Of a DNA stretch of 61,922 nucleotides, positions 4,283 to 57,773 are shown one piece after another (the first letter of the stretch is position 1; the number at the start of each line of letters is the position of its first letter). The stretch is from a virus. The stretch is from IMG/VR virus record IMGVR_UViG_3300044673_000157, positions 1-61,922 of that record, one strand, 5' to 3'. The notes under the pieces are model-generated. The model had not been told where the DNA came from. It saw only the letters and a program-made list of their open reading frames with translations, and did no database searches. A program made the position numbers and the translations under genes.

Positions 4283-4726
4283 ATGCAGAAGATGTCCAAG
4301 GGTTCTATTGACGCGGACCGCCGCATCATGGCCAAGTCGCGTGTTTGCCAGCGTATTGTTAGCCTCGAGCCGGGCCCGGATGGCAAGGTCAAAGAGTTCG
4401 AGCGCGGCATGTTTAATGACCGGCAGTGGCATTCGCTGTTTGTCTATTGCTGGTCCCACAAGGAAGATTTCGACTTCGAGTACAAGGCTGGAGCGTCCGC
4501 TAACCCCAAGGCCCTCACTGAGTCCCAGATGGCTAGGATGGGGCTAGAGGTCGAGGACGATGATCACATCGTTCGTAAGAATAAGGTTTACACCGAGGAT
4601 GAGCTCCGCGGTTCCAGAATCAAGGAGCTGCGTGAAATCTGCACGGCCAAGGGCGTCCCGGATGATGGGGACAAGAAGGCCATGATTGATGCTATCCTCG
4701 AGGTGCAGTCTTTGCTGGAGGACTAG
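4283..4726 (+). CDS. hypothetical protein with SAP/HeH-like C-terminal segment
   Basis: A 147-residue protein. The C-terminal 45 residues (about 100-145) have the pattern of a SAP/HeH helix-extension-helix motif (RIKELREICTAKG), often found near phage structural genes and thought to touch nucleic acid. Start at 4283 is fixed by GGAGG five bases upstream; the upstream in-frame ATG at 4271 is part of that leader. A TATAAT-like box at 4263-4268 precedes it but has no clear -35. Confidence 0.7.
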   Translation: MQKMSKGSIDADRRIMAKSRVCQRIVSLEPGPDGKVKEFERGMFNDRQWHSLFVYCWSHKEDFDFEYKAGASANPKALTESQMARMGLEVEDDDHIVRKNKVYTEDELRGSRIKELREICTAKGVPDDGDKKAMIDAILEVQSLLED

Positions 4727-4729
4727 CTG

Positions 4730-5572
4730 ATGAATATCCGTGACCTGCAAAGCCGAGTGCAATTCATGCGGTCGGACCTCCCAGCGGGGGCGGCTAACTT
4801 GGTTTTGCAGGACGCGGCCCGGTGGGTCGCTCGCAAGAGCGGCGTCGTCAGGCTGAAGAAATACGGGTATGTGAATCCTTCCCAGTATGTCATTGACGTA
4901 GCCACCTTCATGGACGCCGCAAATGGCCAGTTCGAGGTTTTACGTCCAACCCAGATCATGTACCTGCCAGGGCTGTATAAATCGACTACGGCCCTCGGGC
5001 TTTTGACCGCCACCTCACTAACGATTCCGCTCGCGACTGTCGCTACCGCCTACGGATTTTATGTAGCAACGGTCGCCCTGACGGCCACCGATGGTGTCGC
5101 GAGCTATCCCATGAAGGCCGGGGATGTGATCCAGGCGGTGAACCAGAAATGGGTTGTGACCCCATTCTACAAATATAGTGTCGCCAGAGATATCGCCAAG
5201 ATGCGCACTTACCGGGCGAAGGAATCTCCGCTCAACACCACGGGCTATTTGGGCGGCTATGTCGTGGAGAAGGACTCAATCAGTCTTATCCCTGTGCCAA
5301 CGTGTGCAGTGCCCGTGCAGATGGAGTGCAGCATCGTCCCGCTTAAGGAATTCGATTCGGTCGATTTCCCGGTTGAGGCTGAGGACGCCATTATTGCCAT
5401 GGCCAAGGCCCTGCTTTACCAGATCCCCAACAAGGCGGGTGGAGGTGCGGACCTGGGCGCTGCCGGAAGGTTTAACGGGGTGGCCGAGGGCGAGGTCAGC
5501 CTTCTGCGCGCTGTAGCCGAGGGCGGCTACGGCGACTCCGAGATGGCCCCTCCTCCGCATTTTGGCAATTGA
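4730..5572 (+). CDS. putative head-tail / tail protein, 280 aa
   Basis: No family recognised. The protein has mixed helix and beta pattern with a hydrophobic central region (residues 80-125) and a Gly/Pro-rich end. It starts 3 bases after the preceding gene. Location between capsid and an adaptor-like gene suggests a connector or early tail component. Confidence 0.65.
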   Translation: MNIRDLQSRVQFMRSDLPAGAANLVLQDAARWVARKSGVVRLKKYGYVNPSQYVIDVATFMDAANGQFEVLRPTQIMYLPGLYKSTTALGLLTATSLTIPLATVATAYGFYVATVALTATDGVASYPMKAGDVIQAVNQKWVVTPFYKYSVARDIAKMRTYRAKESPLNTTGYLGGYVVEKDSISLIPVPTCAVPVQMECSIVPLKEFDSVDFPVEAEDAIIAMAKALLYQIPNKAGGGADLGAAGRFNGVAEGEVSLLRAVAEGGYGDSEMAPPPHFGN

Positions 5573-5580
5573 GGTGATCC

Positions 5581-6270
5581 ATGGGCAAGACTTTTACCGA
5601 TGTGATGACCCAGGTGCGCGAGCTCATTGGCGACTACCAGTCGACCACCTTCACAGATAAGCAGGTTGGCGAGGCCATCAACTGGGCCCAGGATCTGGTT
5701 ATCCGCATCAAGGGGTTCAAGGTCGCGACACGCCTTTATAACCCGACGACCTATCCCACCGGGAGCCTCCCATCAGACTGGCTTGTCGTGAAGCGCATGC
5801 AGCTCGTGACCAATACGGCCCCGACCTTTGGGGTCGATTCTTCTGATGTGACTGATGTGGTCATCAGGATTCTGGACCCATCTGAGGTCGGTCTCGAGGA
5901 CTCCAATAACGAGAGGTGGCGCTCTGTCCGCCCATCGTATCTACCCCGGCGATGGACGTTGATTGGAGGTCTGTTGTTCTCGATTGTTCCGCCATTGATG
6001 CCAACGGACGGGTCTGGGGCCGGAATGTATGTGAGGCTACATTACATCAAGCGCGCTGTACCTGTTGATTACACGGTGCCTACGAGCCCCGTCGATGCAT
6101 CTATCCCGGACTATTACCAGGAAGCGTTGCGGTATGCTGCGGTCGCTTACCTGCTAGAGAAGGACACGGACCTCAAGTCCCTCCAGCTTAAGGGCGAGAT
6201 GATGAAAGCATTTGACTTCCATCTTGCCGGCGGCGTTGTTAATCTGGCCCAGGGCGAACAGGACGCTTAG
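5581..6270 (+). CDS. putative head-tail adaptor protein
   Basis: A 229-residue protein whose N-terminus (FTDVMTQVRELIGDYQ followed by DKQVGEAINWAQD) resembles phage adaptor proteins that bind under the portal. These have a short helical start, an LPSDW-like motif (residues 60-65) and a C-terminal helical segment ending in a dissociable tail. It overlaps no neighbour, with AGGTG before the ATG. The adaptor assignment rests on pattern and position. Confidence 0.7.
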   Translation: MGKTFTDVMTQVRELIGDYQSTTFTDKQVGEAINWAQDLVIRIKGFKVATRLYNPTTYPTGSLPSDWLVVKRMQLVTNTAPTFGVDSSDVTDVVIRILDPSEVGLEDSNNERWRSVRPSYLPRRWTLIGGLLFSIVPPLMPTDGSGAGMYVRLHYIKRAVPVDYTVPTSPVDASIPDYYQEALRYAAVAYLLEKDTDLKSLQLKGEMMKAFDFHLAGGVVNLAQGEQDA

Positions 6271-14215: not shown

Positions 14216-17200
14216 GTGTCCGAAATGCCCGACGGCAAAAACCCCCTTGATGCCCTTAATTTGTCCGGCAATGACAAGGCTTGGTTCGATAAAATCCTTG
14301 GCGATCCCAGCGCGGATTCCGCGCGTAAGGCTGTCGAGGGCGTAACGGCCCCCGCGATTGAGCCCACCCCCATGCCCTTCATCCCGGCGCATACGCCAGC
14401 GCAGCCGGAGACTAAGCCGGTCGGAACCTGGGGCGAGAACGCCACGGACGCGGAGTGGGAGAAGCCGGTAGTCCCGTTCAATCCGTCTGCCCCACGCCCG
14501 GAAGATATCGGATCTGTCGAGCCCATGACGATGGACGAGTACGCTGATGTTCGGTCGGCCGATGATGCTCGACGTATGTCCGCCCCCTGGCGTGTATTTA
14601 CTGGTCTGGCGCACGGGGCAGCCGCGTCTATCGTTCATCCTGTGGCTTCAGTGAGCGGCCACGTACGGTCTATAGGGGCACTGCTGGAGGAAAGCGGCGT
14701 CCCCGGGCTGGTTGACATTGGGCACAGGATTCGGGGGGCTGGCGATACTATCCGCCCCGCGAAGTCCGAGGCTCAGCTTGCCGAATATGAGCCCACAACC
14801 AAGGCCGGCAAGGGCGGTGGATTCGTCGGCGGGACGTTAGCGATGATTCCAACCTTCGCTGCCATGGGGCTCCCTGGGTTTGTTGCATCTACGGTCGGTG
14901 GCAAGGAGAACGCCATCCTGGATACCGGCGGGACGGGCGCGCAGGCCATTGGTGTTGGGTTGGTCCAGGGCGCGAAGGACGCGTTGATTCTGAAGCTGGC
15001 GTCGATGGTCCCCATCCTGCGGACGACCAACGCCAAGGCTGCGGTTGCTGTTAACGGGGCGCTCAAGAATGTGGCCACGCTTGGCGCCATGAATACTACG
15101 ACCAATCTCGTAGATAAATACACATGGGATCCGAATCGTGGCGCGTTCGACGGAACGCTCGACGCACTATCCACAGGGTTGGCGTTGGGGATTCTCCATG
15201 CCCCGCAGGAGATCCGGCGCGCCAACTACCGCAAGCTGGCGTCAGAATACCCGGGCGGAGTTGAGCGGTTCATGGAGGCCCTCGAGGCCAAGCGCAGCGC
15301 ATTGGCCAAGGGCGAGTCTGAAGCTCAGAATATGGTCACCCTTAACGAGCAGGGCGAACGTGTGCAGTCATACGACCAGATGGCCTTCCGGCGGGTAAGC
15401 ACGGCTGTCGATGAGGCCCTCGCAACGGCCCGGGATTACAGGGACCATCTTCTTAAGTTGGGCAAAATCACGGAGGCCATGGGCAGCGGGGCGATGGCGG
15501 AACGCCCATCTGCGGACCAGGAAGCCGCGCCTGCTCCCACCCCCCTGGCGGTCAAGCCCATCGCTGCCGAGGCCCCAGCGCAAGTGGCCCCGATTGCTGC
15601 GCCGCCCAAGGCGAAGGTTGATGAGGCCACCGGCCGCACGGCCATGCAGCTCTCCACCGAGGCCGCGCAGGCTGCTAAGCCTCTGTCCGATATCCAACCC
15701 ATCAAGACTCACGCGAATGTCGTTCGAGTGACGAGCGGATACGGGGAAGCCAACAAGCCTGAGAACATTCAGGTCCACACTCCCGAGACTTCCCACGCCG
15801 TCGCCAATCGCGCAGCCGCCCAGTCGCTGTTCTCGGTGATGGCCGGCGCGGTCAAGGAGAGTGGGGTTGAGATTGACGATGATGTCAAGGCCACGCTGCA
15901 CAATGTAACTGACGGACTCTCTGCGCCCAACGGCGTAGCCCAGATCGCGCAGCGGTGGGGGCAGATGGGCGTGCCAGAGCCTGTTATCCAGGCATTGACG
16001 GACACGGCTGTCGAGCTCAAGAAGCAGGGGCTAGATATTAACAAGACCCCGCTCAATCCAGATACCACGCCTATCCCGGCTGGCAAGGCTGCGCTTCGCA
16101 ATATGACTTTCCTGACCGAGTTCCACAAGCAGCTCGCGGCTCGCGTCCAGGAGATGGGTGTCGATGCCCCTGAGTGGGCGCGCGGCGCTGTGGCCAAGAT
16201 CGGCAAGCTGGTCGAGCCTGGAGGCAAGTACGACACCGCATTCCGCAAGGGGCTCGGCCTGGAGCCACGCGAACCCGTGGCCGAGCATGCGCCCGTCCAG
16301 CCCATTGTGCAGCCGGTGAGTATCGGCAGTCTGAACAGAGCTGCCACGGAGGGCATGGAAGGGCTCACACAACAGGGCGTGATGTCCGGAGAAGGCCTCA
16401 CCCCCGGTGCGTCCGGAACCGAGGTCGTATCCAACGAGGAGCTCAAGCGCGCTGAGCGTGGCGACACTTACTATCGCGTTGATCGCAGCGGCAATGTCAC
16501 CCATCTGGGCCCCCAGCCTGATGCGCCCGTTCGCAAGGGCGAGGCCGTCATCATGGTGAGTGGCAAAACCGGCCAGCCCCAGGTGCAGAACAGCGAGGGG
16601 CTGGGGACCGATAAGGAAGTGCTGGCGAAGTTCGCGCCCAAGGTCATGGAGGTAGTCAATGCCCAAGCAGGAGAAAGATCTAACCGCACCGAAGTCCCCG
16701 TCCAAGAAGGTCCAAAGCCTCGTCCTGAGCGGCCCAGCGTACCGGCAGGCGAAGGCGAAGGCCGAACTGCTGGGGCTCGGGCCGATGAAGCCCGGGGAGA
16801 GCGTGGAGGATTACTGGCAGAGGCTGGTGGCGCTGATGCAGCCGGGCTAGCGGCCCTTCCGCCCGAAGTCCGTGCGCGCCTGGAGGCTGCCCATTCCGCC
16901 GTATCGGCCCTCCTCGAGCGCGAGCTCGGCGTGACGGATGTGCGCAGCCTGCACGACGAGATGCTGGACATCATGAACGTCCAGGTCAAGCCAGGGGAGG
17001 GTGAGGTCGGTGGTCCGGGCCAGAATGTCTACGGGCCGTCCGAGCTTCTGTACCCCGTCGCCCGCGAGCTTCCAGGGTCTCCATACAAGCGCGTGTTGAA
17101 CCTGACCTCGGGCGTTTTCGTTAGCCCCGAGCTTGCCAAGGCGCTTGGCGTGCCGGCTCGTGCCGGCTACCCGATCCCCGGCAGTAGCGTCATGGCTGCC

Positions 17201-20200
17201 CTTAGCCTAAACCCTGATGCCTGGGGCCACAACAAGACGCTGCTGCGCTCGCTCGGCTTCGACGGCGTGGCCTATAACAATTCTATCGACGGGGTAGCTA
17301 TTGGAGATTTGTCCGAGCCCGTAGCGGCCACAGAAGAGAAGCCCATTACCACCGAGAAAGAGCGTGCCCCCGAAGCGCTGCCCAAGTTCAATCCCGAGAC
17401 CGGCCGCTTCTCGGATAACCCGTGGACGGGTCGATCGACTTCGCTGTTCGGTAATGTGTGGGGCAAGCGAGCGGGCGGGAGTTTCGGGTGGCTGAACGCG
17501 CCAGCGCGCGCGCGGGTTGGTATTAAATTTGTGGAACATGCTGGGGGGTATGCTGCCAGAACCGCAGACAACGCTAAGGCTGATGTGACGATTGCCATGG
17601 CTAAAGATTTTTCTACTGCCGGGGAGCGCCTAACGCGCAAAATGGCATTGCAGAATGGCAAACTATTTATAGAAATACCGCTTACAGTCTCAGGGCTGTC
17701 TGAAAACAGCGTGGCCAACGCAGCCAGGCGGATATCATCTCTCGGCAAGACGAGTGTATCCGTCAATATTGCCGGGAATGGCATTTATAGTCTCAATGGC
17801 AATCAGCCCAAGGTCGATGAGATTGTTCATCAATTCCTAAGCTCCCTTATTGCGCACCCCGACATGTCCGCCAAGGTATCTGGTATCAGGTCTGGTGGCC
17901 AGACTGGCGTAGATGAGGCTGGTATAAAGGCCGCAATCAAACTTGGTTTGCCAGCTACCGTGGTAGCCCCCAAGGGATGGCTATTTAGGGACGCATCGGG
18001 TAGGGATATCTCCAATGAGTTGGCCTTTAAGGCCAGGTTTGCCCGCGTGGCCGAACCCCAGAGCGGCAACCAGATTATAACCCCTCGCCCCGTCTCGAGC
18101 GATGTGCCGGATGCGCCTACCCATACCGTACCCATCGCCGATAAGGTCGAGCGCGAGCAGGCCATCGAGGATGGTCGCACGTTTGCGAGTACACACTGGG
18201 TTACGACTGACGATCTACTGAAGCTGGCGCGCAATGCCGGTGTGCCCCTTGGCGATGACGAGATCAAATCGTCTGGCATGCCGGGCATCACTACCGCTGA
18301 GTATAAGCAGCTGGCCGATCGTGCCGCGGTGGAGTCTGGGGAGGGTGTCGCTAAGCCTGCCCCCACCATGGCCCCGGCCACCGGAAAGTCCTACGGTCCC
18401 GGCGAACTTGTGCATAAATTCACCGCATATGCACGCGACGGCGGGTTCGGTGATCTGGTTTTCTGGTTGTCGAAGAATCCTGATTTTGTGAGCGATATTG
18501 AGGAGGGCGTTCGTTACGGGCGTGGAGAGTTCCGCGGCGTCGTCAAGGCGCTCCTTTCCCGGGAGGAGATCCGCCCAGAAGACCGCGATCGGTACTTCCG
18601 AGAGTTGATGAATGCCGGAGAGCTCGGCTCTAACGACAAGTATCTTATGGCCCGCAACGCACTCAACCGCATGGTCATGGAGGCCGTCGACGGGAAGCAG
18701 GATACCAAGGGCATCTCACGCGCGATGATGAGGCCAGAGCTGAGTAAATCGCATGCAGATATTCTTGCGCTAGCTGCCGTGGCAGCGGCCAAATACCAAC
18801 CTGATTTCTTCTCTGTATCCGAGAAGCGTCTCGCCGATATCCGCCAGCGCGAGATGGAGCGCGGGGCTTACGACGAACCAAAGGACGGTAAGCCAGTCGA
18901 GCCTGTTCTGTCTGGCCACTTCGATGTCCGGCCCGACACACCCAGCGGCTTCTCCCCTACGCTTGATGTATACAACAATCCGGAAGTTGCCCGCGAGTCC
19001 AGGGCGGGTGCCGGATTTGAGGCCCCGGTCCGCGATGAATACGGCGAGCATCTGCCCGCCCAGCCCGTCCTCAACAAGCTGGTGAACGAGGTCGCCAGCC
19101 GCGGCGGGTTCACCAAGGACGCGTTGCGGGCAGCGGGCGTAGAGGCTATGCCCAAGATGCAACACCAAGCCTCCTACGAGGCCGCTGTTAACACTGTCGA
19201 ATCGAACCCGAGGCTCGCCGCCGAGATCACGACTAAGGGGCGCGGGATCCTGCTCGATATGTCCCGCATGCCGAAGGAGCTGGTTCGCAACGGCTTCGCG
19301 ACCTTGCTGCTTAATCATTTCTCTGGCAATGGCAAGAAGCCATTCCATATCGATGCCGAGCGCATTGACCCCAAGTTCGAGAAGTATTACACCGTCGGCG
19401 AACAGACCGTCCTTCAGGTGAACCAGCATGGCGATGGCTTACCCGTGCCACAGCACGTTATGACCACGCGAGAAATTGGGATCATGCTGGACCATAACCA
19501 TCCCATGCACAACCAGACGGTCGAGAACGTGATCGGGCGGCTGGCTTCCAATGAAGATCTGTGGCTCAGTTCGACGCCCATGAAACGCGTATACCAGCGC
19601 GCGGAAGATGGTCGACGATCCAGTGTTCTTGTCCCTCGCGAAACCCTGCTTGGCAATTATCGGTTCAAGACCCTGACCGCCGGTCTTGTACCGCAGGTTG
19701 CACTTGGTCAGATGCCTAGCCACATTCGCGTGTCGGACCCCAAGACGATCCGCACCTCTGTGCGTGAAGCTCTGGATGCGCTCCGTAATGCTGAACCGGA
19801 TTGGTATCAGCGTCTCGGCGATGACCTTATGGATCAATATACCATGGGCATGACCATCTTGGACGCCGCAAAGTCCGCCAAGAAGGGAGATTTCTCCAAG
19901 CTCCTCGGGCTGCCGGAGAACAGCTCAGAGTCGACCGCGGCCTCCCTCGCCTTCTCGGATAAGGCCAACATGGCCAAGCTCGAGAAGTGGACCTCGGATC
20001 TCCTGAAGCGCCTTAACTCCAATACGGATCCAGAAGCCGCGCGCGCGCGAGCCCTGGCTCGTGAGATCGATGCTGCGCTGCGCAAGGTTAAGAGCGATGT
20101 GCTGTGGAACGAGATCTTCCCGGTCGTGCCTGAAGGTGGGGTCGCATCCGCCATCCCCGTGGCAATTGCCGAGACGTCCGTGCGCAACAAGGAACAGTTT

Positions 20201-23200
20201 CTCGATGCGTTTGATGCGCTGACCGAAGGCGACGACAGCCCCAGTCGCAAGTTCGCACGCAGCGTCTTCGAGAAGATCCATGACTCGTTCTTCGAGGAAC
20301 TCGGCATCCACGTCGACACTGACCCCAGTCTCGATGGCGGTCTGTTCGACGTCATGCATCGCATCATTAAGATGTCCAACAGTCTGAAGTCCACGGCCAG
20401 CGCGAGCAAGGTGGCATGGCTGATGACGCACGAGCTCGGTCACGCATTTACGGCTTACATGGGCATCCCCATGCAACAGGCGTCGCACCGCTGGTTTATG
20501 ACTGAACGCGCCAGAGCCATGGGTGGCAATCGTCGGTTCAATGATGTCATGCAGTCAGATTCTATCGACCCGCGGGACGGTAAGAGCATCATTTCTGTGG
20601 CCGATAACTTCAACGCCAATGGCAGTCTGGGCGAGATTGTCATCCCGGCCAGCGGCGAGCTCGGGTCTGCGGCCCTTCTCGCTACCTATCCAGACCTTGC
20701 CCCCCATATGCGAGAGGTGCTGGACGAGGATGGGAACGTTGTCGGCCATCAACTCAGCCGCAAGTTCGCCGGCAGCAACGGGTATCGATACCTGAACCAC
20801 GGCGAATTCATCGCCGAGACCTTCAAGGACGCACTGCACGAACACGCTCGCGGCATTCAGCGTAAGGGCGTGCTGCGACCCAACCTAGACGTTGGTGACC
20901 AGGGCCGGTATATGACTCGTCTCAAGATGAACCCAGACGCCCTGGCGTCCATGGGTTCTCTGCACCGTAACATGGGACGCATGATCGACGCCATGGTTGG
21001 TAAGAACACCATGCGGAGGTTCGTCGGCTACCTGGTCAACCAGGGTGGGACCTACAGCGAGGGCCTGCGCACTGGGTCCGCTGATATTGCGTTCCCCGAG
21101 GCTCAGTGGCGCGGGAACGACCGTGACGTATTTAACGGGAAGGTGCAGGGCGGGCCCCCCATCAGGCCCAAGCCGTTGACACCGGAAGAACTTGCCCGGC
21201 GGCAGCACGAGACGGCTACCAATATTGGCGCGTTTATCAACAGATGGTTCCGCGCGCCATTGATGTCGCAGCTGAATGCGGCGAGTGTTAGTGAATATTC
21301 TCGATCTGCCGCAGACGGGATTAGGTCTATTCTCGGAGAGCTGGGCGTCAACTACAATACCTATACATCGTCTCTGTACGAGTTTCAGGACCGAGCTGCC
21401 AGCGCGGCGGAGGTTGCCACTGCGACGAGACACGCTGTCTCCAGGTTGGCCGAGGCATCCCCCGAAGCCAAGAGGGCTGCGGCCGACGGATTTGCCACGT
21501 CTGTCAAGATCACCGACCCTGCTACCAAGGCTGAATACCTGGTGTCTCTTGACCGCAATGGCAAGTTCCAAGACGTCACCCCGATGTCCAACATTGAGTC
21601 GTGGGTCAACTTCGAGAAATCCGGCAAGTTCACGGGCGATCTGGCCGGCCTCGAGACCCCGCTCAAGGAGCTCAACCATATCACCTGGTCGCAGCTGAAA
21701 TGGGCTGTGGCGGATCTGGCGCAACACCTTGGGGTTGACCCCGAGCACCTGGCCGACTTCGATAAAGAACTCGAGAAGGTGCCCAACTACCTCGTTCATT
21801 CACACGTATCGAAGACAGAGGGGGCTCCCTACTCTAGCTCGGAATCCGCGACCGGGGTGTACGGTTCTGCCGTGGACCCAGCGGTAGATATCGGCATCAA
21901 CGCCAGCATGCTGGTCAACCGTAAGTTCAATGACTATGGTGAAGCAGTTGACGCTGGTCATTTCCCGACACACACCAATGCCGTGAATCTGGCCGTCGGC
22001 GGCATCGCCAACACCCTTGGCGTCATCGCTCGGCTGAAGGCCATCTCTGGTCTCCTCGATCGCGGCCTTGCCGTCGAGTCCGTCACTGACCACCCCGAAA
22101 CCAAGGCCTGGCCTACGCTCCGCATGTCGACCGTCGGACTTCCTGACGAGATGTTCGGCCCCGCGTTGCACAACATCCGCGTCCACCCGGATGCCATGCG
22201 GGTTCTCGATTATGGGTTCCGTCCAGAGCTGTTATCGCGTAGCGAGTTCGGGCGCTATATGTCCCTGGCCTCCGGCATGCTCAACGCCACGCAGCTGTTC
22301 GGGCTTAACGATTACGTGAATGGCATGGCCGCGGTGTCTGGGTTCTCGTCCCTACTCGGCCCTGAATACAAGACCTCGGCGAAAGATGCCAAGTTCATAA
22401 AGAACCTTACCACTGGCGCCAAGGTTGTCGGTGGTGGTCTCGCTATGGGCGCACTAGCGTCTGCCGGCATGGGCCCGGCTGTTGTCTTGGCTGGCGGTGT
22501 TGGTGCGGCTATTACCGCCGCCGCGGCTGTTCGGGCCATTCGCGGGTTCAAGTCCATGACGGCGGGCACCCTTCAGGCCATCACTGAGGGCAAGCGGACG
22601 ATGAACCTCATCCAGTCTCGGGCCGCGCTCCACCCTGAGAGCCTATCTCAGGCCGACCGCAACCTTATTGGGTTCTTTCAGGCTGGCAATATCAAGCTGA
22701 CGGAGAGCAAGACTCAGATCGAGCGCATGAGGACCATGACGCCGGAGCTGATCCGGCAGGGCAAGATGGGCCAGGCGACGGCATACTGGGCCGCTAACAT
22801 CTTGAACAAGCCTGTGCAGGTCCAGGAAATCGGGGTTGGGGGCGTTGGCGGCAAGCTGGTCGCTAAGATCGGCATGCTGGCAATGTTCGCACCTCACGTC
22901 ATGGCCCCATATACAGATGCCAATGGGGACGTTGATTTCTCCAACAAGGAGCTGCTGCACAAGATCTTTGAGCTGTCTGATGATATGGACAATCAGGTTG
23001 GTGCCATCCAGTACCGCAACCTACACATGAACCCAGCTATCGTATCCGGAGCAAAGCTGGCTTTCCGAGCGTTCGGCTTCAGATATACGACCGAGCGAAT
23101 GAAGGTTTTATTTGCAGCAGACGTTATGAATAATCTGGCCTACATCGGGAGCCGGGTGGCTCCGTCCATCGGCACTTCGTACATGGCCTTCCGGGCTGCC

Positions 23201-24451
23201 GCCACTGGCGGGGGCACTGTTGGGCCGAATACTGTCAATGGTACAGTATTAAGCGTAAATGGCGTCAAGCAGGGGCTGGCATGGGGCTGGCGCTCCGGTT
23301 CTCTCGCCCTGATGAACACGCTCCTAACCCTCTCCCTGGCTGCGCGGGTCGAGGCCATGATGAGCCATGTCGTGTGGCCCGGCTCCAACTATACCCAGAG
23401 CCGCTTCGCCGTAGAGACCGCCAGGCAGTTCGGCATGGCAGTGGGTAGCAATAAAGCGGGGAAGGCTTTTGAGGGCCTGCTTTCGGTGGTCCCGCCCGAA
23501 GGCTCGTCACTCTATGATGCCATGCGCCATATCGTTTACGAGACCGTCCTGGCCGCCCCGCAGGCCGGTGAGAACGACCCCAATACTGGACGCCCACGCC
23601 GCATGATTTTCCCGGGCGCCATGTACGCCAGGAATCTCGCAGAACACCCGTTGGCCCTTAGCCTCGATCCCGAGGATCAGCTGAAGGCATCCATGCAATG
23701 GGCTGGCTCTGGCAAGTCGCCGGCCTTATCTGCCATCCATGATGTTTTGCGACAAAAGGACTCTCTTGGCCGACCCCTCGGATTCGGCGAGCCCCTGCGC
23801 AATATTAAACAGATCGAGGCATTCAACAAATGGTCCGAGACCCAGCCGGAAGACTCATGGTCCCTCGGCGTCAAAGTTCCGCTGCGGAGCGCGGCCCACT
23901 CTATCAGCAGCATTCCGCCCCTGTTCGTCCGTTCTATTGACAACATGGTCCAGGGGAGAGAGCGTATGCTGGCCATCAGTCAGCTGCTCGGAGGCCGCAC
24001 CATGCCCCCCGAGGCGAGCCTTAATGAAGCCGAGCGGCTTGCGTTCTCCAAGGCCATGAACCGAGTCGGTGGGGACCGAGACCAGGCGTCGGTAGCGTCT
24101 GGGCGCAAGCTGGCCACAGCTAAGGAAGCCCTATCTCGTGATGGCGATACCACCGAGCTCGACCGTCTCAAGGCCGAGGGGGATATTACAGAGAGCCAGT
24201 ATCGGACTACGAAATCTGCATACGTGGACAAACGCGGAGTCCCGCGGCCCCCGGTTGTCAGGTTCTTGCGCAAGCTAGGCAAGCCGAATAGCAAGGCCTG
24301 GAAGGAAGTTTACCTACTGTCCACGCCCGAACAACGAACCCAGATTAAAGAATATTTATCTGATCCACGTGGATCTGGATATACGAAAGAATATAAAGCT
24401 ATAATCAACGAGGCACTTGACTGGATGGCCGCACAGGACAGGAAACGATGA
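14216..24451 (+). CDS. giant multidomain internal virion / polyvalent-type protein, 3411 aa
   Basis: Third and largest ejection-type gene, probably carried in the head and injected. A Gly/Ala-rich hydrophobic region spans roughly 125-330. Near 1013-1018 is LGFDGVAYNN, the end motif of ART-PolyVal-like domains. Residues 1226-1233 (SGGQTGVD, then an APKGW stretch) match the SLOG/cpYpsA-type Rossmann motif. H2072-E-L-G-H2076 is a zincin metallopeptidase motif. A hydrophobic Gly-rich stretch lies at about 2738-2775. Such giant proteins combine channel building with host-directed enzymes. The start may be GTG 14216 or ATG 14225; neither has a clear ribosome-binding site. The next gene is coupled by ATGA. 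Confidence 0.85.
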   Translation: MSEMPDGKNPLDALNLSGNDKAWFDKILGDPSADSARKAVEGVTAPAIEPTPMPFIPAHTPAQPETKPVGTWGENATDAEWEKPVVPFNPSAPRPEDIGSVEPMTMDEYADVRSADDARRMSAPWRVFTGLAHGAAASIVHPVASVSGHVRSIGALLEESGVPGLVDIGHRIRGAGDTIRPAKSEAQLAEYEPTTKAGKGGGFVGGTLAMIPTFAAMGLPGFVASTVGGKENAILDTGGTGAQAIGVGLVQGAKDALILKLASMVPILRTTNAKAAVAVNGALKNVATLGAMNTTTNLVDKYTWDPNRGAFDGTLDALSTGLALGILHAPQEIRRANYRKLASEYPGGVERFMEALEAKRSALAKGESEAQNMVTLNEQGERVQSYDQMAFRRVSTAVDEALATARDYRDHLLKLGKITEAMGSGAMAERPSADQEAAPAPTPLAVKPIAAEAPAQVAPIAAPPKAKVDEATGRTAMQLSTEAAQAAKPLSDIQPIKTHANVVRVTSGYGEANKPENIQVHTPETSHAVANRAAAQSLFSVMAGAVKESGVEIDDDVKATLHNVTDGLSAPNGVAQIAQRWGQMGVPEPVIQALTDTAVELKKQGLDINKTPLNPDTTPIPAGKAALRNMTFLTEFHKQLAARVQEMGVDAPEWARGAVAKIGKLVEPGGKYDTAFRKGLGLEPREPVAEHAPVQPIVQPVSIGSLNRAATEGMEGLTQQGVMSGEGLTPGASGTEVVSNEELKRAERGDTYYRVDRSGNVTHLGPQPDAPVRKGEAVIMVSGKTGQPQVQNSEGLGTDKEVLAKFAPKVMEVVNAQAGERSNRTEVPVQEGPKPRPERPSVPAGEGEGRTAGARADEARGERGGLLAEAGGADAAGLAALPPEVRARLEAAHSAVSALLERELGVTDVRSLHDEMLDIMNVQVKPGEGEVGGPGQNVYGPSELLYPVARELPGSPYKRVLNLTSGVFVSPELAKALGVPARAGYPIPGSSVMAALSLNPDAWGHNKTLLRSLGFDGVAYNNSIDGVAIGDLSEPVAATEEKPITTEKERAPEALPKFNPETGRFSDNPWTGRSTSLFGNVWGKRAGGSFGWLNAPARARVGIKFVEHAGGYAARTADNAKADVTIAMAKDFSTAGERLTRKMALQNGKLFIEIPLTVSGLSENSVANAARRISSLGKTSVSVNIAGNGIYSLNGNQPKVDEIVHQFLSSLIAHPDMSAKVSGIRSGGQTGVDEAGIKAAIKLGLPATVVAPKGWLFRDASGRDISNELAFKARFARVAEPQSGNQIITPRPVSSDVPDAPTHTVPIADKVEREQAIEDGRTFASTHWVTTDDLLKLARNAGVPLGDDEIKSSGMPGITTAEYKQLADRAAVESGEGVAKPAPTMAPATGKSYGPGELVHKFTAYARDGGFGDLVFWLSKNPDFVSDIEEGVRYGRGEFRGVVKALLSREEIRPEDRDRYFRELMNAGELGSNDKYLMARNALNRMVMEAVDGKQDTKGISRAMMRPELSKSHADILALAAVAAAKYQPDFFSVSEKRLADIRQREMERGAYDEPKDGKPVEPVLSGHFDVRPDTPSGFSPTLDVYNNPEVARESRAGAGFEAPVRDEYGEHLPAQPVLNKLVNEVASRGGFTKDALRAAGVEAMPKMQHQASYEAAVNTVESNPRLAAEITTKGRGILLDMSRMPKELVRNGFATLLLNHFSGNGKKPFHIDAERIDPKFEKYYTVGEQTVLQVNQHGDGLPVPQHVMTTREIGIMLDHNHPMHNQTVENVIGRLASNEDLWLSSTPMKRVYQRAEDGRRSSVLVPRETLLGNYRFKTLTAGLVPQVALGQMPSHIRVSDPKTIRTSVREALDALRNAEPDWYQRLGDDLMDQYTMGMTILDAAKSAKKGDFSKLLGLPENSSESTAASLAFSDKANMAKLEKWTSDLLKRLNSNTDPEAARARALAREIDAALRKVKSDVLWNEIFPVVPEGGVASAIPVAIAETSVRNKEQFLDAFDALTEGDDSPSRKFARSVFEKIHDSFFEELGIHVDTDPSLDGGLFDVMHRIIKMSNSLKSTASASKVAWLMTHELGHAFTAYMGIPMQQASHRWFMTERARAMGGNRRFNDVMQSDSIDPRDGKSIISVADNFNANGSLGEIVIPASGELGSAALLATYPDLAPHMREVLDEDGNVVGHQLSRKFAGSNGYRYLNHGEFIAETFKDALHEHARGIQRKGVLRPNLDVGDQGRYMTRLKMNPDALASMGSLHRNMGRMIDAMVGKNTMRRFVGYLVNQGGTYSEGLRTGSADIAFPEAQWRGNDRDVFNGKVQGGPPIRPKPLTPEELARRQHETATNIGAFINRWFRAPLMSQLNAASVSEYSRSAADGIRSILGELGVNYNTYTSSLYEFQDRAASAAEVATATRHAVSRLAEASPEAKRAAADGFATSVKITDPATKAEYLVSLDRNGKFQDVTPMSNIESWVNFEKSGKFTGDLAGLETPLKELNHITWSQLKWAVADLAQHLGVDPEHLADFDKELEKVPNYLVHSHVSKTEGAPYSSSESATGVYGSAVDPAVDIGINASMLVNRKFNDYGEAVDAGHFPTHTNAVNLAVGGIANTLGVIARLKAISGLLDRGLAVESVTDHPETKAWPTLRMSTVGLPDEMFGPALHNIRVHPDAMRVLDYGFRPELLSRSEFGRYMSLASGMLNATQLFGLNDYVNGMAAVSGFSSLLGPEYKTSAKDAKFIKNLTTGAKVVGGGLAMGALASAGMGPAVVLAGGVGAAITAAAAVRAIRGFKSMTAGTLQAITEGKRTMNLIQSRAALHPESLSQADRNLIGFFQAGNIKLTESKTQIERMRTMTPELIRQGKMGQATAYWAANILNKPVQVQEIGVGGVGGKLVAKIGMLAMFAPHVMAPYTDANGDVDFSNKELLHKIFELSDDMDNQVGAIQYRNLHMNPAIVSGAKLAFRAFGFRYTTERMKVLFAADVMNNLAYIGSRVAPSIGTSYMAFRAAATGGGTVGPNTVNGTVLSVNGVKQGLAWGWRSGSLALMNTLLTLSLAARVEAMMSHVVWPGSNYTQSRFAVETARQFGMAVGSNKAGKAFEGLLSVVPPEGSSLYDAMRHIVYETVLAAPQAGENDPNTGRPRRMIFPGAMYARNLAEHPLALSLDPEDQLKASMQWAGSGKSPALSAIHDVLRQKDSLGRPLGFGEPLRNIKQIEAFNKWSETQPEDSWSLGVKVPLRSAAHSISSIPPLFVRSIDNMVQGRERMLAISQLLGGRTMPPEASLNEAERLAFSKAMNRVGGDRDQASVASGRKLATAKEALSRDGDTTELDRLKAEGDITESQYRTTKSAYVDKRGVPRPPVVRFLRKLGKPNSKAWKEVYLLSTPEQRTQIKEYLSDPRGSGYTKEYKAIINEALDWMAAQDRKR
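16659..16850 (+). CDS. nested small gene inside the giant gene, +1 frame
   Basis: A 63-residue reading frame lies wholly inside the giant gene but in another frame. It begins at ATG 16659 with GGAGG (16647-16651) at good spacing. By eye, third codon positions in this frame are mostly G or C, while the giant frame here shows weaker third-position bias and a low-complexity Pro/Glu/Gly linker. The product is helical, with a charged N-terminus and a SVEDYWQRLVALM pattern near its end. It may be an overprinted gene or the relic of a gene fusion. Confidence 0.5.
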   Translation: MPKQEKDLTAPKSPSKKVQSLVLSGPAYRQAKAKAELLGLGPMKPGESVEDYWQRLVALMQPG

Positions 24452-34409: not shown

Positions 34410-34554
34410 CCAATCTCCTTTGATCGCGCTCTTGTTTGGCTTCAATCACAGCCTGATGGACCTTGGCCCTAAAGGCCGCCTTGCGCTCGGCGCTACGGGC
34501 TCGCGACTCCGCGAGCTTTTCTCTATTGTACTTGTAACCGAATCTATTCTGCAT
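34366..34554 (-). CDS. small basic protein, 62 aa
   Basis: Start 34554 has AAGGAG upstream and overlaps the end of the glycosyltransferase gene by 11 bases; its end overlaps the VRR-NUC gene. The product is very rich in Arg, Lys and Glu. Function unknown, possibly nucleic-acid binding. The overlaps on both sides make it less sure. Confidence 0.5.
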   Translation of the reverse strand: MQNRFGYKYNREKLAESRARSAERKAAFRAKVHQAVIEAKQERDQRRLDGRRSAKRDACQKG

Positions 34555-35521
34555 CCTCAATCTCCTTAATGATCTGGGCAGAATGCGTGAAGCCAGGAGA
34601 TAATCGCAATGATTCCTGTGCGAAGAGTTTAGCCTCCCTAAGTCGCCCCATGGCTGCGAGGGTAATAGCCGTTCTGTTGAGTGCAAATACGCTCGTAGGA
34701 CACGCTCGAAGGACATCCTGATATTGGTGAAGTGCCTGCTCGTAATCTCCGCGCTGATGGGCCAACTCACCCGCGATAATCGCAACAGAAAATGGAACTG
34801 GATCCCCGATGTCCGAATATGCTTCGATCCCGGCGGCTACGTCCTCCCATGACCCGGCGATCCTGGCATGGGAAATGTAGTTAAAGATACACTTAGGATC
34901 GAACGAGCGCTCAAGATAGTCTTGTCTCGCCAATTCCAGATAGTGGGCGGCCTTGCCGCGCTCGTGGGCCTTATTGACCTTCCCGTAATGCTTGATAATA
35001 AAGTCCGACCATCCAACAGATAGCCCGGCTTCTGGCATCAATTTCTCGTGCAGTCTTCCTTCATAATGTAGCCCGATATGGTTCCTGAATAGGCGACCCC
35101 CGATGTCATCATATCTGTAAGGGTATTCATCGTCGTATGGTTCGGGCGTGTGCCCCAACATGGCTGCGTTGCCATCCATATAATAATGACGAATTTTGTG
35201 TTCATATAAATCATGTGGACCTTCGACCGAGCGCCTAATAATTCCATGATCCTGTCTGGCAAGAGCCTCGTCAGCGTCAAGGACCAAGATCCAATCACCC
35301 ACACAGTATTTGAGCGACTCATTCCTGGCCGCCGAGAAATCGTTGCACCACTCGAACGAGCTAGGCACAACTCCGTTTTTATGCAAGAGTTCGATAGTGC
35401 CATCCACTGATCCGGTGTCCACAATTACCATTTGATCAACCAGTCCGCGAACGGAATTGATGCAGCGTTCGATATTCTCGGATTCATTACGAACAATCAT
35501 GGCGAGAGATATTGTGCTCAT
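34544..35521 (-). CDS. family 2 glycosyltransferase with TPR-like C-terminus
   Basis: A 325-residue protein. Residues 1-90 form a GT-A core (SLAMIVRNESENIERCINS, VDTGSVDGT, and D82-A-D84 for metal and sugar nucleotide). The C-terminal part (about 220-325) holds TPR-like helices (HQRGDYEQALHQYQDVLRA). GT2-TPR proteins add sugars to proteins or other acceptors. In phages, GT2 enzymes modify DNA, virions or host sugars; the target here is unknown. Coupled to the upstream gene by ATGA. Confidence 0.75.
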   Translation of the reverse strand: MSTISLAMIVRNESENIERCINSVRGLVDQMVIVDTGSVDGTIELLHKNGVVPSSFEWCNDFSAARNESLKYCVGDWILVLDADEALARQDHGIIRRSVEGPHDLYEHKIRHYYMDGNAAMLGHTPEPYDDEYPYRYDDIGGRLFRNHIGLHYEGRLHEKLMPEAGLSVGWSDFIIKHYGKVNKAHERGKAAHYLELARQDYLERSFDPKCIFNYISHARIAGSWEDVAAGIEAYSDIGDPVPFSVAIIAGELAHQRGDYEQALHQYQDVLRACPTSVFALNRTAITLAAMGRLREAKLFAQESLRLSPGFTHSAQIIKEIEDAE

Positions 35522-36036: not shown

Positions 36037-36152
36037 GGGGGGCCTTTCGACTGTTTAGGCGAACTCGGGTTAATTGAAAATGTTGCGCTTACGTGTTTGT
36101 TTGGTATGCCGGTTCCCCGATTAGGCGAACTGGCGAGTACGGCTAGTGCTAG

Positions 36153-36458
36153 TTAGGGCTCCCGCCGATCGATGCAGTCATCCATGCTGCGGTAGTAGAG
36201 AGCCGGGAACCGCTCTCGCCAGGCGTGGGCCTCCCGGCGGAACCGCTCCCGCTCGCGGGCGAGCTGCACCAGGCGCTGATCAACCGAGGCCAACTCTCGC
36301 CGAATCTGCTTCGTCTCCCAGTGCTGGGCCATGCTGGTATAGAGGTGATTGCAGGGCGTGCAGTCCTCGTAGATCGAGACCCCATGCTCACAATTCATCG
36401 TCACCCTAACCACGGCGCTCGACTCGGACCCTGCCTCGGGTGCGTTTTGCTTCGTCAT
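36153..36458 (-). CDS. cassette gene 1, hypothetical, 101 aa
   Basis: The ATG at 36458 lies inside the central loop of attC-1, with a GGAGAAAGGA-type site upstream; a second ATG at 36398 directly after the attC box is also possible. The protein has a CEHGVSIYEDCTPC motif (two Cys pairs, possibly zinc binding) and an Arg-rich coil. The stop TAA falls within the degenerate R' box at 36152-36158. No family recognised. Confidence 0.6.
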   Translation of the reverse strand: MTKQNAPEAGSESSAVVRVTMNCEHGVSIYEDCTPCNHLYTSMAQHWETKQIRRELASVDQRLVQLARERERFRREAHAWRERFPALYYRSMDDCIDRREP

Positions 36459-36504
36459 GTCGGTTCCTTTCTCCGGCAGGGCCGGTCAGCTTTGTGCGTT
36501 GGGC
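36404..36504 (+). repeat. attC-like site 1
   Basis: Left box CCCTAAC (36404-36410, one mismatch to RYYYAAC), right box GTTGGGC (36498-36504, fits GTTRRRY). The arms pair as GAC-CGG-CCCTGCC, with unpaired C, T and A in the left arm. The left-arm bulges define plus as the attC top strand. Confidence 0.75.
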
Positions 36505-36505
36505 G

Positions 36506-36694
36506 CTATCGCCACTCCCATTCAAAAGTCCCGAACACGGGTTCAACCTCGCCCACCAGATCATCCAGCGGGTTCTCCATGCTCATGTCGCCGTTGTCGT
36601 TCAACCGGAAGCGCAACCACTCTTCCAGGTTGTCGTCGTTGATCCGCGCATCAGCCGGTATTTCGACTTCAAATTCCACCTTGATCCGTGGCAT
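36506..36694 (-). CDS. cassette gene 2, hypothetical, 62 aa
   Basis: Start 36694 follows GGAGGAACAC, and the 15-base leader is identical to the one in front of the scaffold gene (1801-1815). The product is a small, very acidic, beta-patterned protein (PRIKVEFEVEIPADAR, then FEWEWR at the end). The TAG stop sits one base from the R' box of attC-1. This is the best-supported gene of the array. Confidence 0.7.
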   Translation of the reverse strand: MPRIKVEFEVEIPADARINDDNLEEWLRFRLNDNGDMSMENPLDDLVGEVEPVFGTFEWEWR

Positions 36695-36713
36695 GTGTTC
36701 CTCCATTGGCGCT

Positions 36714-36796
36714 GCCCAACCGGGCATTCAACCTGCGTTCGCTTCGCTCGTCGGACCCGGACGCCTGCGGCGCCGGGTTAGCTCGGGGCGTTAGAC
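36714..36796 (+). repeat. attC-like site 2
   Basis: R'' box GCCCAAC (36714-36720) and R' box GTTAGAC (36790-36796), both full matches to the attC consensus. The left arm carries an extra 18-base insert containing TCGCTTCGCTCG. The right arm ends GGTTAGCTCGGGGC before R', close to classical attC right arms. Confidence 0.75.
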
Positions 36797-36970
36797 ATAC
36801 CAAGCGCGGAGTTTCACGATGGTTTTGGTCTTACGCCCGGTTTTAAATTTCTCGGGTATCACATGGATGTTGGCATCGCAATTGGTGTTTAATTCTTGTA
36901 ATTCAACTTCTACATCCCCATGTTCCGCCATGGTTGCGCTCAATTCATTGATCAAAACGGATATTTTCAT
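36791..36970 (-). CDS. cassette gene 3, small protein, 59 aa
   Basis: A 59-residue product starting at 36970, only 3 bases from the R'' box of attC-3. The start pattern KISVLINELSATMAEHGDVEVEL resembles many small phage proteins with an ISELI..L..HGD form. The stop TAA is inside the R' box of attC-2. No strong Shine-Dalgarno; the attC box itself supplies AGAGGTTAGG. Confidence 0.65.
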   Translation of the reverse strand: MKISVLINELSATMAEHGDVEVELQELNTNCDANIHVIPEKFKTGRKTKTIVKLRAWYV

Positions 36971-36972
36971 CT

Positions 36973-37066
36973 ACCTAACCTCTGCATCAACTCGGACCCC
37001 AGCGCGGGTGCGAGTGGTTTCTGATGTGTCCGGCCTGCGCTGGGGCCGGTTATGCGGGCGTTGGGC
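36973..37066 (+). repeat. attC-like site 3
   Basis: R'' box ACCTAAC (36973-36979), R' box GTTGGGC (37060-37066). The arms align as CAT-AAC-CGG-CCCC in both, with extra C, T and A in the left arm. The first and last extra bases are 8 apart, as for the G20''/T12'' extrahelical bases of known attC sites. The CCCCAGCGC stem is perfect. Confidence 0.8.
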
Positions 37067-37068
37067 GC

Positions 37069-37269
37069 TTAGGCATCCACCAATCGGCCAGCGCGGATGC
37101 TTGCTCCCACATCCACCTGGCCGTGCCCCTCGGCCTCAGTCGGGCATCCTGCCCAAAGATCCGCGATTCGCTCTCGCTCCTGGGTGATGTAGCTGTCGAA
37201 ATCGGCTCGGCTCATTCGGAGGCTGTCTCGGTTCTGAAACACCTGCTCCGTGATCTGGTTCTCACTCAT
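37069..37269 (-). CDS. cassette gene 4, hypothetical, 66 aa
   Basis: Start 37269 (M of MSENQITEQVF) lies 22 bases after the attC-4 box and follows GGAAAGG. It encodes a helical, charged 66-residue protein with a Trp and one Cys. The TAA stop begins 3 bases after the R' box of attC-3. No family recognised. Confidence 0.65.
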   Translation of the reverse strand: MSENQITEQVFQNRDSLRMSRADFDSYITQERERIADLWAGCPTEAEGHGQVDVGASIRAGRLVDA

Positions 37270-37290
37270 GTCATCCTTTCCGGGCATCGC

Positions 37291-37367
37291 GCCCAACATC
37301 TCGCTCAACCTTCACTCGCTTCGCTCGTCGGACCCGTGCGGCGCCGGGTTAGCTCGGGGCGTTAGCC
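37291..37367 (+). repeat. attC-like site 4
   Basis: R'' box GCCCAAC (37291-37297), R' box GTTAGCC (37361-37367, one mismatch). It shares the 18-base left-arm insert type and the GGTTAGCTCGGGGC right arm with attC-2, but its hairpin is shorter. Confidence 0.7.
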
Positions 37368-37559
37368 GAATGGAATCTCTACAGGCCCGTGCAGGGCTTC
37401 ATGAATAAGACCGGCAATCCAGCTATGAGAAAGCGTTGTAGCCGCCAGTTTCTTCTCAAGTGTCTCCAGATACGCCTTATAACGGTCACGTTCTTCCTTG
37501 ACCTTGTTTCGTCTAACCCGTCGCTCAACTCGGGCCCCGCCTTCATCGTATTTCGTCAT
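37362..37559 (-). CDS. cassette gene 5, hypothetical, 65 aa
   Basis: The only in-frame start with a ribosome-binding site (GGAGGATGAC) is ATG 37559, inside the central loop of attC-5. Translation then reads through the left arm and R'' box (residues about 6-16, GGARVERRVRR). The rest is a charged helix and a short hydrophobic tail. The TAA stop is inside the R' box of attC-4. Confidence 0.65.
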   Translation of the reverse strand: MTKYDEGGARVERRVRRNKVKEERDRYKAYLETLEKKLAATTLSHSWIAGLIHEALHGPVEIPFG

Positions 37560-37605
37560 GTCATCCTCCAGGCCCACGGCGGGGCCGGTTAGCTTTTCGT
37601 TGGGC
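37511..37605 (+). repeat. attC-like site 5
   Basis: R'' box GTCTAAC (37511-37517), R' box GTTGGGC (37599-37605). Both arms have an 8-base spacer, then AAC-CGG-CCCCGCC, with extra C, T and G in the left arm. The loop holds the start signals of cassette gene 5. Confidence 0.8.
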
Positions 37606-37606
37606 G

Positions 37607-37894
37607 CTACTCGTCGGGTGGGAAAAGTGGGTGCTGACGGCGCAGTTCCATGCCACTCCACAACACCAAATTCCCGCTCTCTAACATGCACTTATCCGGG
37701 CTGAGGAATTGAACGGCCCACTTCCGAAACTCGTCGAACTCATTGTCTGCGAGGATCACGCCAACCGGCTTTGCGAGGTTGTTAGTGAGGCAGGCGCTCT
37801 CTAGGTTCGAGAGATACATGGCGGCCTTGGGGTAGAAGACTGCGCCCAACCGTGCGCTCGACTCGGACCCCGGCTGCGTTTCGTCCTGGTTCAT
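37607..37894 (-). CDS. cassette gene 6, hypothetical, 95 aa
   Basis: Start is either ATG 37894, with the half attC site encoding QPGSESSARLG, or ATG 37819 after the box (AAGG upstream). The body (LESACLTNNLAKPVGVILADN, then FRKWAVQFLSPD) is globular with no recognised family. The TAG stop lies one base from the R' box of attC-5. Overlaps none of its neighbours. Confidence 0.6.
   Translation of the reverse strand: MNQDETQPGSESSARLGAVFYPKAAMYLSNLESACLTNNLAKPVGVILADNEFDEFRKWAVQFLSPDKCMLESGNLVLWSGMELRRQHPLFPPDE
37844..37872 (+). repeat. half attC-like site (left arm only)
   Basis: R'' box GCCCAAC (37844-37850), then an 8-base spacer, C, GAC, T, CGG, A and CCCCGG as in the other left arms. No matching right arm or GTTRRRY box was found before 38100. 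It marks the right edge of the array. Confidence 0.65.
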
Positions 37895-46520: not shown

Positions 46521-46757
46521 CTACCACCTCACCAAAAGATTCTCGCCAACCCAGCGGGCCCGATATGCGGTGGCCATGTCAGAGACAATGCATGCCATTA
46601 GGCCGGACACACGGGAATGCTGCACGCGAAATGCGAACATCTTTTGGGGCATGGTATTGTCCATGGTTCGGATGGCGTCACCCCGCCGAATTTCCATCTC
46701 GGTATAAGGGCGCTGGCTTCTTGCGATAGCGTTGAGGAAGCGCTGGGATTGGCGCAT
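46521..46757 (-). CDS. hypothetical protein, 78 aa
   Basis: Begins one base after the stop of the Gly-Tyr repeat gene, probably coupled because no separate Shine-Dalgarno is visible. Rich in Arg and Met, with a central MPQKMFAFRVQHSR stretch. No family recognised. Confidence 0.5.
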   Translation of the reverse strand: MRQSQRFLNAIARSQRPYTEMEIRRGDAIRTMDNTMPQKMFAFRVQHSRVSGLMACIVSDMATAYRARWVGENLLVRW

Positions 46758-46758
46758 G

Positions 46759-46995
46759 TTAGCCGCGGCCGTAGCCGTCGCCGTAGCCGCGGCCGTCGCC
46801 GTCGCCGTCGCCGTAGCCGTAGCCGTAGCCGTGGCCGTAGCCGCGGCCGTCGCCGTCGCCGTCGCCGTAGCCGTCGCCGTCGCCGTCGCCGTAGCCGTAG
46901 CCGTAGCCGTGGCCGTAGCCGCGGCCGTCGCCGTCGCCGTAGCCGTAGCCGTGGCCGTCGCCGTAGCCGTCCTTACCTATCAAGAGGCTCAGCAT
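46759..46995 (-). CDS. Gly-Tyr/Asp repeat protein, 78 aa
   Basis: After a short hydrophobic start (MLSLLIGKD) almost every second residue is Gly, alternating mainly with Tyr and Asp and sometimes His or Arg (GYGDG units). It is coded by GGC alternating with NAC/CGC codons. Such Gly/Tyr chains are flexible or adhesive. It is flanked by real genes on both sides in the same direction. Function unknown; the repeat could also expand or contract. Confidence 0.5.
   Translation of the reverse strand: MLSLLIGKDGYGDGHGYGYGDGDGRGYGHGYGYGYGDGDGDGYGDGDGDGRGYGHGYGYGYGDGDGDGRGYGDGYGRG
46763..46972. repeat. GCCGTA/GCCGTC hexamer tandem repeat
   Basis: About 200 bases are built from 6-base units GCCGTA and GCCGTC (with GCCGTG and GCCGCG variants). 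All units are divisible by three bases, so the reading frame is kept. The array makes up the core of the Gly-Tyr/Asp gene, and its length is likely to vary between isolates. Confidence 0.85.
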
Positions 46996-46998
46996 GAA

Positions 46999-47319
46999 TC
47001 ACCACCCCGAAATCACATTGATCTGAACGAATGGGGTGCAACGCACCGTGCCATAGTCGTCATATTTGGTTTTATTGGAGATGGGGCCATTGACGAGTTC
47101 GCCGAGGCCCCCGGTAGTGCCCCAATAGCGGATATTGCGGGCATTGGAGATGGTCACACTGCCGTCAGCATGATCTTCGCAGTGGCCGACAAATACCCAA
47201 CCCTTATCTGCCACAATAATACGGATGGGGCCAAGAACACCTGGAGTCTGGATGGAGTCTTTGCGTACATAGTCGATGTTGTTGATAGAGATCGTGTTGA
47301 TCTGGTCTTGCTGGGGCAT
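46999..47319 (-). CDS. DUF6948-like small protein, 106 aa
   Basis: AGGAG precedes the ATG at 47319. The sequence has the patterns of phage DUF6948-type proteins: RIIVADKGWVFVGHCED, ARNIRYWGTTGGLGELVNG, and YDDYGTVRCTPFVQINV. These are common small accessory proteins in phages. Their function is not known. Confidence 0.7.
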   Translation of the reverse strand: MPQQDQINTISINNIDYVRKDSIQTPGVLGPIRIIVADKGWVFVGHCEDHADGSVTISNARNIRYWGTTGGLGELVNGPISNKTKYDDYGTVRCTPFVQINVISGW

Positions 47320-47359
47320 GGGGGCTCCTAAGATATAGTGGGGGTGCAGATGGACAGCT

Positions 47360-57696: not shown

Positions 57697-57773
57697 CCGC
57701 GGCTGGCGCAGCCTGGTAGCGCACGTGCCCTGGGAGCACGGGGTCGTCAGTTCAAATCTGACGCCGCGGACCA
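57697..57773 (+). tRNA. tRNA-Pro (TGG)
   Basis: Acceptor CCGCGGC/GCCGCGG (7 bp), D arm GCGC...GCGC with AGCCTGGTA, anticodon stem CGTGC/GCACG, loop CCTGGGA (anticodon TGG), T arm GTCAG-TTCAAAT-CTGAC, discriminator A and an encoded CCA. All parts are present. The base before the anticodon (position 33) is C, not the normal T. Confidence 0.85.

Follow-up and report, generated by a model that had tools for sequence, protein, structure and literature searches.

An integron-like cassette array in a phage genome with genes inverted relative to their attC sites, and recurrence of this design in viral contigs

Results and Discussion

The 61,922-base virus record IMGVR_UViG_3300044673_000157, which was analyzed over its whole length and is referred to as the window, carries between 36151 and 37894 a row of six short genes on the minus strand, about 240-350 bases apart, that alternate with five attC sites and one half site on the plus strand:
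36151..36158 (+): lone R'-like core (GTTAGGGC) at the left border of the array
36153..36458 (-): cassette gene C1, 101 aa, starting inside S1, with its stop TAA in the R-box complement at the left border
36404..36504 (+): attC site S1, with the off-consensus R'' box CCCTAAC; a Shine-Dalgarno sequence (SD) and the ATG of C1 lie in its loop on the minus strand
36506..36694 (-): cassette gene C2, 62 aa (MPRIKVEF...)
36714..36796 (+): attC site S2, second subtype, weak score
36791..36970 (-): cassette gene C3, 59 aa, weak match to the phage families phrog_10692 and phrog_6992
36973..37066 (+): attC site S3
37069..37269 (-): cassette gene C4, 66 aa (MSENQ...)
37291..37367 (+): attC site S4, second subtype, weak score, with the off-consensus R' box GTTAGCC
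37362..37559 (-): cassette gene C5, 65 aa, starting inside S5, N-terminus ..GGARVERRVRR coded by the attC arm
37511..37605 (+): attC site S5; SD and ATG of C5 lie in its loop on the minus strand
37607..37894 (-): cassette gene C6, 95 aa, N-terminus coded by S6
37844 to about 37880 (+): half attC site S6 (R'' and L'' arm only)

In order to test whether these sites are indeed attC sites we built a covariance model, R1, from twelve attC sites of bacterial contigs only, mostly Acidobacteriota, and searched both strands of the window. At E<=10 the model returned exactly five matches, all on the plus strand and all within the array, namely S5 (62.7 bits, 1.8e-14), S3 (56.6 bits, 8e-13), S1 (56.5 bits, 8.5e-13), S4 (16.8 bits, 0.039) and S2 (14.2 bits, 0.19). 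The same model also found the attC sites of class 1 integron cassettes on the strand of the resistance gene. Three sites are beyond doubt on their own, whereas S2 and S4, which belong to another subtype with a longer loop region, are weak alone but lie in register in the array and resemble each other, and S2 is conserved with its cassette in another phage. The initial annotation, which had described five complete sites with RYYYAAC and GTTRRRY boxes, a half site and six very short genes and had interpreted them as a CALIN-type array carried by a phage, is thus confirmed with small corrections: both strict boxes are present in S2, S3 and S5 but not in S1 and S4, and the extra C, T and A/G bases restricted to the left arm are clear in S1, S3 and S5. 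What had not been noticed is that all six genes run opposite to the attC sites. An Rfam scan gave no hit, and no DNA similarity to the array was found in 50,697 phage records.

The carrier is a podovirus-like phage encoding a large terminase, a head-tail adaptor, a scaffold, an internal virion protein and a primase, but no integron integrase or tyrosine recombinase was found in the window. In the collection of phage records its terminase has only relatives under 60% identity, and no relatives were found through the Sak4-like gene neighbouring the array. A family 2 glycosyltransferase with TPR repeats (34544-35521) lies beside the array on the same strand. The genome also contains a single ORF of 3411 aa (14216-24451) in the structural gene half, a plus-strand ORF reading as a long alternating Ala-Val repeat, which is a simple-sequence tract (46732-47331), and a tRNA-Pro (tgg) gene (57697-57773).

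Inverted polarity of phage cassettes

In class 1 integrons the extrahelical bases lie in the left arm of the strand that carries the gene. In the window they lie in the left arm of the plus strand, while the six genes, together with the flanking phage genes, are on the minus strand. To take this further we collected viral contigs with similar sites as well as bacterial genomes with the same attC type, of which 15 of 17 tested carry an integron integrase above the curated cut-off. R1 found about 300 sites in the viral loci. As a longest-ORF count (103 to 41 with 47 ambiguous) was too crude in GC-rich DNA, we scored only the DNA between attC sites with codon models. From 191 viral cassettes in 59 loci 137 were inverted, 0 canonical and 54 undecided, whereas from 76 bacterial cassettes 38 were canonical, 1 inverted and 37 undecided. 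Exchanging the codon models kept the sign (viral 73 inverted to 1, bacterial 14 canonical to 1), and the contrast is therefore a property of the phage arrays and not of the method. Phage TJE1, a published phage CALIN, gave no hit with R1 and could not serve as a polarity control.

Interestingly, 89 of 184 viral attC sites of 85-135 nt hold on the gene strand an ATG with a Shine-Dalgarno sequence inside the site, in a frame open into the cassette, compared to 1 on the top strand and 6 of 136 bacterial sites. The attC arm then codes the first residues of the protein, MTKYDEGGARVERRVRR in C5, MTKQNAPEAGSESSA in C1, and the like in other phages (GPVERPVRR, GSELSEGLG, VRLTDGLG). At the other end, 58 of 160 inverted ORFs stop at the TAA of the R'-box complement and 96 stop there or within 12 nt before it. 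Since the attC of a cassette lies at its right end and the box at its left end, start and stop belong to the same mobile unit. In the window C1, C5 and C6 start inside their site, while C2, C3 and C4 start just outside it. Contigs of Acidobacteria metagenome bins (loci L066, L091 and L135) also hold attC sites of the phage subtype, with the same attC-coded peptide MTNQNAPEAGSESSAVVR in L091, and might be prophages or misbinned phage contigs.

Phages with their own integron integrase

Virus record G014 (loci L309 and L310) encodes a tail tape measure protein, a second tyrosine recombinase and an integron integrase of 346 aa, which scores 428 bits against a cut-off of 265 and is 53% identical to IntI1. 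Its array sits at the 5' side of intI with the attC sites pointing away from intI, which is the usual geometry, yet the genes point toward intI. Using an integrase alignment, and thus independently of attC, we found 385 viral stretches with relatives, of which 80 were kept. In these, 89 of 90 attC matches lie on the strand opposite to intI, and the cassettes were again inverted (36 inverted, 1 canonical, 3 undecided). The genes in the 1.5 kb before intI pointed toward it in 54 cases and away in 1, a test that does not use attC but in which the bacterial loci were mostly undecided. By a strict pattern, LexA boxes before intI were too few in either group to conclude. Portal, head maturation protease, tail, spanin and phage integrase genes lie in these contigs. 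In a quick maximum-likelihood tree 62 of 68 viral integrases form one clade (SH-aLRT 96) without any of the 39 bacterial ones sampled, although the bacterial sample is thin and the viral integrases were picked by likeness to one of them. In the 50,697 phage records integron integrases at this level occur in only nine, comprising the published cases (P1, Shewanella, Vibrio), one Salmonella record, two short Acinetobacter phage fragments and one enrichment-culture virus, which may explain why these integrons were not noticed. Virus Rctr41k (KX853513) from a methane-oxidising enrichment carries at 4680-5678 an integron-type integrase annotated as xerD, with upstream genes on the same strand, toward the integrase as in the phage type, but no clear attC array was found beside it.

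Sharing of cassettes between phages

Cassette C2 recurs in the phage locus L013 with 89% identity of the DNA over 284 bases and 93.5% of 62 residues. The likeness starts exactly at the GTTGGGC box and ends inside the attC near R', whereas the attC arms before it and the neighbours differ, and the terminases of the two phages are 35% identical. C1 shares its left end, coding the C-terminus, with locus L006, from the box on, and with locus L026. The left border of the array (36119-36151) is shared with L026 (3698-3735) for 33 bases beyond the cassette, and in L026 this is a clean inverted repeat (TAGGCGTAC..GTACGCCTA), perhaps a terminator or an attI-like element. Over all viral cassettes 11 pairs of cores are shared between different locus pairs once the two pairs from one and the same record are set aside, and in all five with neighbours to compare the neighbours differ. 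Some pairs link phages without an integrase match (L019, L255) to integrase-bearing ones (L359, L367, L393). This comparative evidence suggests that the cassettes move as units bounded by the recombination boxes.

Relation to known integrons

CALINs and integrons in phages are already known, as Qi et al. (2023, PMC9892861) reported 17 CALINs and 3 complete integrons in 10,705 phages and showed that IntI1 can use five of six tested phage attC sites, which makes recombination of such sites plausible. To our reading gene polarity relative to attC is not discussed there, and the annotated Shewanella case (M16-3) has genes pointing away from intI, so that not all phage integrons are of the inverted kind. 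No earlier report of phage integrons of this kind was found in the open-access literature searched, which leaves out preprints and most subscription journals. Class 1 integrons share with the phage arrays the extrahelical bases in the left arm of the attC top strand and the box types, but their resistance genes lie on the attC top strand and point away from intI, whereas the phage cassette genes lie on the other strand and point toward it. The nearest attC sequence type was found in chromosomal integrons of Geothrix and other Acidobacteriota, which differ by their canonical polarity, by longer loops of about 124-nt sites and by few start signals inside attC.

We interpret the array as a CALIN that belongs to a phage-adapted branch of the integron system, with a probability of roughly 0.8; recombination is only inferred from sequence comparison, and two of the five sites score weakly. 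We infer that each cassette is a self-contained translation unit, with the start signal in its own attC and the stop at its other border, that needs no cassette promoter and is read by the phage operon into which the array is set, the latter being inferred from gene direction only. With inverted genes the mRNA would have the sequence of the attC bottom strand, so a hairpin in the mRNA would show the start codon in its loop. An integron integrase would recombine the folded bottom strand of attC to insert, excise and swap cassettes. As the window has no integrase, its cassettes would be exchanged by an integrase in trans, either from the integron of the host or from a co-infecting or resident phage of the intI-bearing kind.

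It is also possible, but unlikely, that the sites are remnants of an old array on which no integrase acts any more and which is kept only for its genes or as intergenic hairpins with translation signals. The missing integrase, the off-consensus boxes of two sites and the half site would fit this view, but three sites keep boxes, arms and extrahelical bases, and C2 is shared with another phage with its left border exactly at the recombination box and with different neighbours. Slightly less likely still, an ordinary bacterial CALIN might have been captured by chance, as in the published phage cases, without any phage-specific design, since attC sites of the same type are abundant in Geothrix and other Acidobacteriota integrons. 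However, cassette polarity is an inherent property of a cassette and is inverted in phages and not in those bacteria (1 inverted to 38 canonical), start signals in attC are a phage feature, and cassettes recur between phages. That the polarity is an artefact of gene calling in GC-rich DNA is very improbable despite long plus-strand ORFs and the less clear longest-ORF count, given the codon scoring with either model, the weak phage family matches of C3 and the protein conservation of C2, both on the minus strand, and the flanking phage genes running the same way.

Conclusion

In summary, a phage carries a CALIN whose genes run opposite to their attC sites, and the same design recurs in dozens of viral contigs, many with their own integron integrase. 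It appears likely, although somewhat less so than the interpretation above, that phages own a separate class of integrons, with their own integrase lineage and with cassettes whose attC sites double as ribosome-binding leader, N-terminal tag and stop signal, and use it to swap small accessory genes between unrelated phages, including phages without an integrase that rely on one in trans. Integrons are studied as bacterial gene-capture devices. The attC-coded N-termini, such as VERxVRR, GSELSEGLG or VRLTDGLG, give a sequence signature by which such cargo genes can be found, and the attC site would gain a second role, in translation. If phages run their own version, with genes turned round so that they are read with the phage operon, then part of the small-gene mosaic of phage genomes may be shuffled by site-specific recombination rather than by chance.
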